The notes under the pieces: generated by a model
What the model saw: only the letters and a program-made list of their open reading frames with translations
What the model was told of the DNA's origin: nothing
The model's database searches: none
Translations under genes and position numbers: made by a program
From: Paenibacillus sp. Soil787
GTDB lineage: Bacteria > Bacillota > Bacilli > Paenibacillales > NBRC-103111
Assembly (NCBI RefSeq): GCF_001429545.1
Contig: NZ_LMSP01000045.1
Span: forward strand, 63,731 to 127,730
DNA: 64,000 nucleotides
Direction of reading: 5' to 3'
Shown here: piece after piece, positions 9,026 through 52,247 of the stretch
Position numbering within the stretch: the first letter of the stretch is position 1
Layout: each line of letters begins with the position of its first letter

Positions 9026-9101
9026 TTTTTTAACTCCTGTTCTATATGAGCCAGTTCCATTCGTCCATTGTCTCAATAATAGAGAGTCGGTTATTTTTGT
9101 T

Positions 9102-13619: not shown

Positions 13620-14309
13620 ATGGAACTGCATTTTAGCGATGTGCAATCTCATATGTTTCAAACAGAAGAGGAATGTGAGAATTTCTTAATGAAGATGCGC
13701 TGGTCTAATGGGTTTTGTTGTCCTTGCTGTGATTATAATGAAGCTTTTAAAATCCGTACACGTAGATTATTAGAGTGCAAGGAATGCAGAATGCAAGTCT
13801 CCATAACTGCTGGGACGATTATGCATAAATCCAAACTCTCATTACTCCATTGGTTCCGTGCCATCCAACTGCTATTGCAAGAAGGCAAAGAGTATACTGC
13901 GAGTTCATTGTCACATATCCTTGAAATTAATTATAGAAGTGCTAGATTGATGCTTCAGAAAATTCATTATGCAAATTTGATTAAAGAAAATAGGCTTAAT
14001 TATTTTCAAAAAGTTAGAGAATCAGCCTCTGAAGCTCCGATATTTAATGATCAGGAATCTAATGAAGAAACGCCTCAAACCCACTTAAACCAAAACTCCT
14101 CTAATGAGTGGAGTCTACGCTTATACCTAGAATCCAAATTAAATAGACTCAATACCAAACTGATGATACAGAATATTTTGCCTAATGAATACCGAAGATA
14201 TTTGGGTAATAAGAATCGATCGGGGTTTACGTTTAATTATTGGATCAAGACGTTTATGTCGGTCTATTTATATCCTACTTTTCTTAAGTGCTATCAACTC
14301 TCTGCGTAA
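13620..14309 (+). CDS. Solo IS1595-type zinc-ribbon transposase-like protein without nuclease domain
   Basis: A 229-residue protein. Residues ~12-70 match the IS1595 transposase zinc ribbon: [20 protein letters not shown], then CPCC and CKEC metal-binding pairs, then [21 protein letters not shown] helical segment resembling the transposase HTH follows ([19 protein letters not shown]). The C-terminal half has no sign of the ISXO2-like DDE nuclease; it is polar and ends in [16 protein letters not shown]. No terminal inverted repeats or target duplication were found nearby. The gene has a good ribosome site (AAAGGAGTGAGGAA) and its own promoter. It is either a decayed transposase or a domesticated DNA-binding protein. 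Confidence 0.65.
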
Positions 14310-20323: not shown

Positions 20324-21037
20324 ATGGATTCTGTTAATTTGTGGATTGCTTTATGGGCGGGAATTGCTTCTTTCATATCACCTTGTTGTTTGCCCTTATA
20401 TCCTTCTTATCTTTCTTACATAACGGGAATTTCAGTTAGTGAATTAAAATCTGGGGAATCTTCTTCAGCAGTTCGGCGACAAACGATGCTTCATACGTTA
20501 AGTTTTATCGTTGGGTTTTCGATCATTTTTTATGCTTTAGGCTTAACAGCGGGCTTCCTAGGCAATTTTTTCATCGATTATCGTGATTTGCTTCGACAAA
20601 TAGCAGCTTTATTAATTTTCATTATGGGATTATTCCTGATTGGCATTTTCCAGCCTCAATGGTTAATGAAGGAACGTAAATTCAATATCAAATTTCGTCC
20701 TGCTGGGTATGTTGGTTCTGTTCTTGTTGGAATGGGCTTTGCAGCAGGATGGTCTCCTTGTGTTGGACCGATTCTGTCCGCCATCCTTGCACTGGCAACA
20801 ACGGAACCTGGAACATGGTTTCAATTAACGACAGCCTATTCACTTGGTTTTGCAATTCCATTTTTTGTATTATCTTTTTTTATTGGATCTACGAAATGGA
20901 TACTACGTTATTCCAACCTGATTATGAAAATAGGAGGGGGCTTGATGATCGTCATTGCGGTTCTGCTCTATACGGGCAAAATGACGCAAATTACGCTTTG
21001 GTTAAATTCCATAACCCCCGATTGGCTAAAGTTTTAG
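20324..21037 (+). CDS. ccdA: CcdA-type cytochrome c biogenesis / thiol transfer protein
   Basis: A 237-residue membrane protein with six hydrophobic segments. The first carries SPCCLPLYPSYLSY and the fourth carries GWSPCVGPILSAIL, the two redox Cys of the CcdA/DsbD-beta family. These move electrons from cytoplasmic thioredoxin to extracytoplasmic thiol proteins, for cytochrome c maturation or spore cortex assembly in Bacillus. The ATG is 1 nt after the znuB stop, so it shares the znu transcript. There is no obvious terminator between them. Confidence 0.93.
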   Translation: MDSVNLWIALWAGIASFISPCCLPLYPSYLSYITGISVSELKSGESSSAVRRQTMLHTLSFIVGFSIIFYALGLTAGFLGNFFIDYRDLLRQIAALLIFIMGLFLIGIFQPQWLMKERKFNIKFRPAGYVGSVLVGMGFAAGWSPCVGPILSAILALATTEPGTWFQLTTAYSLGFAIPFFVLSFFIGSTKWILRYSNLIMKIGGGLMIVIAVLLYTGKMTQITLWLNSITPDWLKF

Positions 21038-21120
21038 TTATTTGACCGTATCTAGGTTGATGCATTATGATAGTTAAGCAGTAGGCAGCAAATAAAGGAA
21101 AAGCAGGGGGAAATAAAGCA

Positions 21121-49869: not shown

Positions 49870-51219
49870 GTGAAGATATTGCAATCCAGCAAAAGAAAAA
49901 GATTGTTCGGACTCCTGCTCGTCTTCTTCGTTTGTATGGTAAGTTTGTCTCCGCCTTTTCAAAGCTTTGCCTCCTTCCCCCAGGAACTTCGCTTATTCAG
50001 CGGGCAAGGGAAGCAGCTCCAACTAACAATGCCGGTCAACGCCCAAGTCACGGTAAAAGATACGGATATTGTAAAGGTTAACGGCAATGCCAAGCACTCA
50101 TTTCAAGTTAATTTGAAAGAACCCATCTCTTTACAATCCGATCACTCTGGGCAAACAGAAATGAAGCTCAAGCTATTCGGTGCAATCCCCATCAAGACCG
50201 TTAAAGTCAATGTAGTGCCGGATTTGAAAGTCATCCCAGGTGGTCAAACTATCGGTGTGAAAATTAAGTCTGCCGGTATTTTGGTCGTAGGTCATCATTT
50301 AGTAACTGTTGCCCAAGACCAAAAAGTTTCACCTGGTGAAGAAGCGAAAATTCAAGTAGGTGATTTAATTACTAAGATCAATGGTAAAGATTCCAAGGAT
50401 GTCAGTAAGGTTGCTGATCTTGTAGCCAAATCCGGAGAAAGCAAATCACCGCTGGAGCTAAAAATCCTTCGTAACAATGAAGAGATTATTGTTAAGCTGC
50501 AGCCTGTCTATGACGTCGTAGATAAGTCCTATCGCTTAGGTTTGTACATTCGGGACTCAGCTGCGGGTGTTGGTACCTTAACCTTCTACGCACCAGATCA
50601 AGGCGTGTACGGGGCACTGGGACATGTTATCACGGATATGGATACCCAAACGCCAATTATCGTTGGAGACGGCGATATTGTGTACTCGAATGTGACCTCT
50701 ATTTCTAAGAGTCATAATGGAGATCCAGGCGAGAAACATGCTACCTTGTACAAAGATAGTAAAGTCATTGGCAATATCGAAAGAAACACAGCATTCGGTA
50801 TTTTTGGCAAAATGTATGCTGCTCCTGACCACAGCTTGGATAAAGAAGCCATACCTGTTGCTTTCGCTGAAGAAGTGAAAGAAGGTCCTGCTCAAATTTA
50901 TACAGTCGTGGAAGGACAGAAGGTTGAGAAATTTGACATTCAAGTTGTCCATGTGTCCAAACAAGACATTCCAGGAACCAAAGGAATGGTCATTAAAATC
51001 ACGGATCCGCGATTGTTAGATAAGACAGGCGGTATTGTGCAAGGGATGAGCGGCAGCCCCATTATCCAGAATGGCAAGTTAATCGGAGCCGTTACTCACG
51101 TATTTGTGAATGATCCTACAAGTGGTTACGGTTGTTTCATAGAGTGGATGCTTCAGGACTCAGGTATTATCCTTAGACCTTCTTCAGGAGCCTCGTACAA
51201 AGAATCAAAGGCGAGCTAA
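49870..51219 (+). CDS. spoIVB: SpoIVB peptidase (S55)
   Basis: 449 residues; made in the forespore, secreted, and triggers pro-sigma-K processing by cleaving SpoIVFA. N-terminal membrane/signal segment (LFGLLLVFFVCMVSLS), PDZ domain (~120-215; VSPGEEAKIQVGDLITKING) and the S55 protease domain with His in YGALGHVITDMDTQ and catalytic Ser in GMSGSPIIQNGKLIGAVTH. Start is GTG 49870 or TTG 49879 (AAGGAG upstream; TTG is better spaced). Confidence 0.95.
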   Translation: MKILQSSKRKRLFGLLLVFFVCMVSLSPPFQSFASFPQELRLFSGQGKQLQLTMPVNAQVTVKDTDIVKVNGNAKHSFQVNLKEPISLQSDHSGQTEMKLKLFGAIPIKTVKVNVVPDLKVIPGGQTIGVKIKSAGILVVGHHLVTVAQDQKVSPGEEAKIQVGDLITKINGKDSKDVSKVADLVAKSGESKSPLELKILRNNEEIIVKLQPVYDVVDKSYRLGLYIRDSAAGVGTLTFYAPDQGVYGALGHVITDMDTQTPIIVGDGDIVYSNVTSISKSHNGDPGEKHATLYKDSKVIGNIERNTAFGIFGKMYAAPDHSLDKEAIPVAFAEEVKEGPAQIYTVVEGQKVEKFDIQVVHVSKQDIPGTKGMVIKITDPRLLDKTGGIVQGMSGSPIIQNGKLIGAVTHVFVNDPTSGYGCFIEWMLQDSGIILRPSSGASYKESKAS

Positions 51220-51285: not shown

Positions 51286-51394
51286 TGTCGAAAAATGTTG
51301 GAAATAGAAGATAAATTTATTATTATATAAGAAAGTGAATTAAAAGAAAAGAAAAATAATATTCGACAGAAGGAATTTAAGTTAGGGTGTCGAA
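51286..51394 (+). promoter_or_regulatory. spo0A promoter region: 0A boxes and sigma-H promoter
   Basis: TGTCGAA (0A box) occurs at 51286-51292 and 51388-51394, and inverted (TTCGACA) at 51362-51368. A sigma-H promoter fits exactly: GAAGGAATT (51369-51377), 11 bp, GTCGAAT (51389-51395), its -10 overlapping the last 0A box. This is the autoregulated sporulation promoter layout known from Bacillus spo0A. Confidence 0.85.
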
Positions 51395-51452: not shown

Positions 51453-52247
51453 TTGCAAAAAATTCAGGTGTTACTAGCAGATGACAATCGTGAGTTTACC
51501 CATTTATTATCAGAGTTCATTGGTGAGCAAGAGGATATGGAAATTGTAGGAGTGGCGTACAACGGTAACGAAGTTCTTCGTTTTCTTGAACAACAGCGTG
51601 AATTACCGGATGTACTCATTTTAGATATTATTATGCCTCACTTGGATGGCTTGGGTGTACTTGAAAAAATGCGTGAGATGAATCTTCCCACACAACCAAA
51701 AATCATCATGCTAACTGCATTTGGGCAAGAAAATATCACTCAAAAAGCTGTGCAACTTGGAGCCTCTTACTACATTCTCTAGCCTTTTGATATGGAAACG
51801 CTAACGAACCGTATTCGCCAGCTTGTTGGTAACAATCAAGCATCCGCAACCACTTCAACATCACGTGCAAATATCGTACATATGCCTAAAGGTAAAAACT
51901 TAGATGCTAATATCACTAGCATCATACATGAAATCGGCGTTCCTGCGCATATTAAAGGATATCAATATCTTCGCGAAGCGATTACGATGGTTTACAATAA
52001 TATCGAAATCCTTGGTGCGATCACCAAAACTCTGTACCCAGCTATTGCTGAGAAGTACAAGACTACACCAAGCCGAGTCGAGCGTGCCATTCGTCATGCG
52101 ATTGAAGTCGCTTGGACCCGCGGCAACATTGACTCCATCTCGTTTATCTTCGGATATACGATTAATATCTCGAAGTCGAAACCAACAAATTCGGAGTTTA
52201 TCGCCATGGTTGCTGATAAGCTTCGCATCGAGCATAAGGTTTCTTGA
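51453..52247 (+). pseudogene. spo0A: spo0A interrupted by in-frame amber stop at the conserved receiver lysine
   Basis: TTG start at 51453 after AAAGGAGG. The first 109 codons give a normal receiver domain: Asp10/Asp11 in LLADDNREF, phospho-acceptor Asp58 in [12 protein letters not shown] and Thr in MLTAFGQEN, ending GASYYIL. Codon 110 is TAG (51780-51782), where the family has Lys (ILKPFDM). The same frame then continues, [15 protein letters not shown], linker, and the complete Spo0A DNA-binding domain ([43 protein letters not shown]) to 52247. Read through, the protein has the normal length (~264 codons). An internal ATG at 51792 could restart the C-terminal part but lacks a ribosome site. 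Spo0A is the master regulator of sporulation entry. Only one base separates TAG from the AAG Lys codon. This may be a real null allele, a sequencing error or read-through. Confidence 0.9.

Follow-up and report, generated by a model that had tools for sequence, protein, structure and literature searches.

Sporulation is described as easily lost within spore-forming genera (PMC3533761). In P. megaterium populations evolved in TSB, nonsense or frameshift changes are reported to have led the spo0A mutations at 21 days in nine of 16 populations, whereas populations evolved in soil never showed spo0A mutations (PMC12016532). A study of B. thuringiensis biofilm evolution on beads likewise lists spo0A among the repeatedly mutated genes (PMC10654089). 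Within Paenibacillus, laboratory P. polymyxa SC2 is reported to have acquired a spontaneous Spo0A R211H substitution together with a change in DegU and to have lost spore formation (PMC9195935, PMC10782996); since the second of these reports suggests that R211H retains some activity, this parallel is not a clean null. A further report on spontaneous variation in P. polymyxa (PMC7538429) was set aside as a parallel because it concerns lower spo0A expression and not a spo0A mutation. Among the papers listed by our literature searches on spo0A loss and on integration at spo0A, none dealt with the strain described here or with elements attached to the spo0A 3′ end.

The allele described here lies in a window of 64,000 nucleotides (G000:C44:63731–127730) from the genome of Paenibacillus sp. 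Soil787, which comprises 7.66 Mb in 47 contigs. It resembles the P. megaterium alleles from TSB, as these are described in PMC12016532, in being an apparently recent and independently repeated disruption of spo0A by a stop codon (stop or frameshift in P. megaterium), but those alleles were watched rising in culture, whereas the window allele is inferred from one assembly. With the change reported for P. polymyxa SC2-M1, which arose in laboratory culture with loss of spores, it shares both the gene and the genus. In contrast to our stop codon, however, the SC2-M1 change is a missense mutation in the DNA-binding region that is accompanied by the DegU change and possibly leaves the protein partly active.

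The spo0A gene occupies positions 51453–52247 of the plus strand and begins with a TTG codon at 51453. In frame with this start, a TAG at 51780–51782 (plus strand) forms codon 110, the position of the receiver-domain lysine. Lysine is found at this position in 103 of the 104 distinct spo0A alleles compared, the window allele being the one exception, and the solved Spo0A receiver 9phz carries ILKPFDME at the same place. The initial annotation had described an amber codon at this lysine with a good reading frame on both sides and no other damage to the gene, and had called for comparison with sibling strains. The observation is correct and exactly placed. In family searches, the 109 codons 5′ of the TAG (51453–51779, plus strand), which end just short of the conserved lysine position, match the receiver family Response_reg (PF00072, E 9.7e-23), and the 154 codons 3′ of it (51783–52247, plus strand), which continue in the same frame through the end of the receiver, the linker and the DNA-binding domain, match Spo0A_C (PF08769, E 4.3e-45). 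All 795 bases align without a gap to 11 sister alleles, so the gene contains no indels, and the TAG at codon 110 is unique to the window allele, its sisters having kept the lysine. A premature in-frame stop therefore precedes an essential domain in a gene that is otherwise intact. Searching the genome for Spo0A_C gave a single match, spo0A itself, and no second copy was found. Among the 32 proteins returned by a search with the receiver fragment, the window's own 109-residue product was absent; the 120 proteins listed out of 1243 that match the C-terminal half are mostly full length.

The surroundings of the gene look intact, as the initial annotation had held for both the promoter with its 0A boxes and spoIVB. 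The promoter region (51286–51394, plus strand) contains three 0A boxes found by searching for the pattern TGTCGAA (51286–51292 and 51388–51394 on the plus strand, 51362–51368 on the minus strand), and it is conserved in an alignment with six sister genomes. Since the same pattern occurs 12 times in the whole window against 9.6 expected, it is the cluster upstream of spo0A that stands out. The upstream neighbor spoIVB (49870–51219, plus strand), which served as a control gene, is open throughout and matches its own family (PF05580, E 7.8e-88). SpoIIE and SpoIVA, encoded elsewhere in the genome, are both open.

Stops inside other conserved genes had also been proposed as a check. The closest relatives that bear names belong to Paenibacillus and include Paenibacillus sp. 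Root444D2 (G020) and V4I3. In a syntenic comparison of four genomes, with an interior stop defined as one at 15–90% of length and with 61–63 query ORFs per relative matching the window, no conserved window ORF except spo0A was interrupted by an interior stop. In V4I3 the same comparison flagged spo0A along with a truncated relative of window positions 13620–14309; it flagged no ORF in G006 and one in Root444D2, which is on the minus strand and lies across plus-strand ORFs of the window. Under a looser criterion, 13 rows with stops were listed for window ORFs: three are spo0A, seven fall within about 35 residues of the query start and reflect start-site choice, and the remaining three are short minus-strand ORFs (91–139 residues) that overlap plus-strand ORFs. 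The window also lacks about 1.6 kb at 9071–9073, present in G006, Root444D2 and V4I3 with an ORF of 468–487 residues, and about 1.1 kb at 21036–21039, present in G006 and Root444D2 with an ORF of 353 residues.

To judge from its codons, the spo0A allele is young and the gene is without decay, because its differences from sister alleles are nearly all synonymous. The window and V4I3 genes differ at 34 codons, of which 32 are synonymous differences and two are stops; 1753 of the 2273 possible non-stop one-step changes in spo0A would alter an amino acid. Comparison with G006 and with G004 gave in each case 32 synonymous and two non-synonymous codon differences, the stop included, and comparison with Root444D2 gave 50 and one, respectively. 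Among 12 alleles, the changes private to the window allele are two synonymous changes and the stop, a branch so short that the case for youth rests mainly on the pairwise comparisons. We rejected an already decaying pseudogene on the same near-absence of non-synonymous differences.

The sister species V4I3 also has an amber codon in spo0A (NZ_JAUSZA010000001.1), in a protein otherwise identical to that of the window. Its TAG occupies codon 36, which specifies tyrosine in 103 of 104 alleles, and since the two stops affect different codons (36 and 110) they represent two independent events. V4I3 differs from the window further in carrying about 11 kb of inserted DNA at the spo0A 3′ end and in its spoIVA (G026:C1:4097300–4098900), which is split by a one-base insertion that is either real or an assembly error.

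In relatives, and not in the window's genome, the 3′ end of spo0A seems to serve as an attachment site for integrative elements. V4I3 (locus G026:C1:3991501–4004700), G009, G052 and G057 each carry a second copy of 137–161 bases around the spo0A 3′ end, about 5–11 kb away on the same strand, and similar partial copies occur in G004, G032, G064, G081 and G098. The insert contains a tyrosine integrase in G052 and G057, and in V4I3 an N-terminal integrase piece lies beside spo0A. Such flanking copies and integrases are the leftovers expected of elements attached at this site. The V4I3 insert bears OLD-family and Mrr-like genes, and the three ORFs tested in G009 encode a group II intron reverse transcriptase and two transposase-like proteins. 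In a Paenibacillus metagenome-assembled genome, spo0A is followed, about 285 bases downstream, by a partial copy of its own 3′ end that has diverged (L037:4759–4887). Spo0A_C-like stretches were also seen in 14 phage records, including MT835504.1, the ten listed being unannotated and from human fecal samples, and divergent Spo0A_C matches (45–52% identity) were seen in G096, G099 and G101.

We put at about 80% the probability that a recent point mutation has produced a null allele of spo0A, one that most likely became established while the strain was being isolated or passaged in the laboratory in rich medium, where a block in sporulation can pay. The mutation creates a TAG at which translation would end after 109 residues, leaving a product cut off ahead of the switch lysine and missing the remainder of the receiver, the linker and all of the DNA-binding domain. 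Such a protein should be inert, with no means of binding 0A boxes, and sporulation should not start in the strain. What the sequences show is the stop codon, a single copy of the gene, no decay in its surroundings, no suppressor machinery among that examined, and the V4I3 amber; that function is lost, that the strain is asporogenous and that culture selected the allele are what we infer. Of the interpretations offered in the initial annotation, a recent null allele has gained from the young and isolated lesion, the amber in the sister and the published parallels, whereas amber suppression fared badly when tested. Were the TAG suppressed or recoded, full-length Spo0A would be made, perhaps as a means of controlling sporulation, and both TAG-bearing sister genes would be readable; that the two independent stops, in the window and in V4I3, are both TAG and that the protein on either side of them is unchanged between the two genomes speaks for this. 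TAG is, however, an ordinary stop codon in this genome and recoding is unlikely. For 56 conserved window ORFs the match extended to the end in two or more of three relatives; TAA closes 29 of them, TAG 15 and TGA 12. RF1 is intact (an open frame of 360 residues, 529.9 bits), as it also is in V4I3; neither loss of RF1 nor avoidance of TAG was thus found. The earlier remark that no pyl gene is in view extends to the genome, whose best PylS-family match scored 32.7 bits against a cutoff of 178.15, and the V4I3 match is likewise far under that cutoff. With sub-cutoff PylS, an intact RF1 and 15 of 56 ORFs ending in TAG, pyrrolysine decoding or TAG reassignment is unsupported. A tRNA family search, in which 150 of the 394 first-look candidates were scored, gave at least 88 matches, and none of the 85 tRNAs read by ARAGORN in fetched stretches of the genome, which are not paired one to one with those 88 matches, has a CUA anticodon. 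Patterns for a CUA tRNA, which left out anticodon-to-T-loop spacings of 17–21 and unusual T-loops, matched nine places at spacings of 14–16 against 17 in the reversed control (12 against 13 in V4I3) and, at spacings of 22–36, two places in the window's genome against 16 in the control; at the 23 places in both genomes, 11 of them in the window's genome, ARAGORN read either a tRNA with a different anticodon or no tRNA at all. Folding of the RNA after the TAG yielded nothing beyond shuffled sequences (z 0.38 and −0.69), and we rejected a read-through structure on that basis. Taken together, these results make decoding of the TAG extremely improbable.

Two further explanations would leave some or all of Spo0A function in place. 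The TAG may be a base-call or assembly error in an organism whose spo0A is really intact, and the genus offers some grounds for such caution: spo0A is split by frameshifts in G017 and G022, which, as possible assembly errors, we did not count among the loss alleles, and G022 is split in spoIVB too. The lesion here is, however, a substitution and not an indel, it falls in a gene where it is biologically expected, and since no other compared conserved window ORF has an interior stop, sequence errors are probably rare in this stretch, so that we consider an error unlikely. Alternatively, translation may restart at an in-frame ATG that begins nine bases after the TAG, as found in the ORF list and the sequence, so that a receiver fragment is accompanied by a separate DNA-binding domain of 151 residues (51792–52247, plus strand) active without phosphorylation. 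The Spo0A_C domain is intact in this frame, and B. subtilis Spo0A lacking its receiver domain is constitutively active. Inspection by eye showed no Shine-Dalgarno-like sequence close upstream of the ATG at 51792, though, and because methionine is encoded there in all 12 alleles shown, the ATG is not a new feature; the arrangement also differs in V4I3, in which the first listed start after the stop is codon 51, opening an ORF of 214 residues. Restart is in our estimation highly unlikely; it could leave a little unregulated DNA-binding domain, which counts against a clean null and which we rate as minor.

The second amber raises the question of spo0A loss in related genomes. In the GTDB family, 104 genomes yielded 100 full-length spo0A rows, of which 98 are free of stops and two, from the window's genome (G000) and V4I3 (G026), have one TAG each; both genomes belong to this genus of 30 genomes. 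Two incomplete genomes, G036 and G055 (68 and 78% complete), gave no spo0A match at E 1e-45. A search across the order covered 392 genomes, with stop status for the matches listed. Stops in partial second spo0A copies in G032, G042, G064 and G098 are a matter separate from the full-length gene. Apart from the stops, otherwise invariant arginines of the DNA-binding domain are changed in G007 (R208C), G013 (R211H) and Paenibacillus sp. GSMTC-2017 (R211C), and Spo0A of G002 carries G38E. Residue R208 in the window's numbering corresponds to residue 211 of the 267-residue Spo0A of P. brasilensis, and P. polymyxa Spo0A is presumably numbered like the latter.

The control genes temper these observations. 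Of the stops flagged in spoIVB, those of G009 and G100 fall on codon 3 and on the natural C-terminus, and spoIVB is split in G022 and G052, in the latter with a TGA. Radical private changes within the genus number four in Spo0A (Y36*, G38E, K110* and R208C; 238 columns) against one in SpoIVB (262 columns), and across 80 named loci they number three in Spo0A, four in SpoIVB and three in RecN. The excess over control genes is weak, being modest in the genus and absent among the named loci. A post hoc Fisher test of four of 30 in the genus (the two stops, R208C and R211H) against one of 74 other alleles (R211C) gave p 0.024, and stops alone (two of 30 against none of 74) gave p 0.081, or 0.084 with 72, the groups having been picked after looking and the 74 alleles having been drawn from a list ordered by how similar the C-terminal half is, which favors intact genes. 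Given this comparison list, the post hoc groups and the lack of an excess over controls among named loci, we do not claim a statistical excess of spo0A loss in this genus. There are nonetheless hints in these sequences of recurrent loss. In this plant- and soil-associated genus, spo0A may be the route of several independent losses of sporulation, perhaps in nature as well as in culture: its 30 genomes include two different ambers in sister species together with R208C (G007) and R211H (G013). We offer this reading tentatively and consider it rather doubtful.

The window allele is thus, most probably, an ordinary null allele that arose recently and belongs to a well-known kind, and no new decoding mechanism is shown. 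What is new beyond the initial annotation is the independent amber in V4I3 and the other suspicious spo0A changes in the genus; the V4I3 amber is the one unexpected fact, and it raises the question of whether spo0A loss is unusually frequent here. The two independent ambers in sister species suggest that spo0A should be checked routinely in Paenibacillus genomes. If the isolate is asporogenous, the genome that represents its species misrepresents it, and trait predictions from it, such as that of a spore former, as well as inoculant work relying on it, could err.
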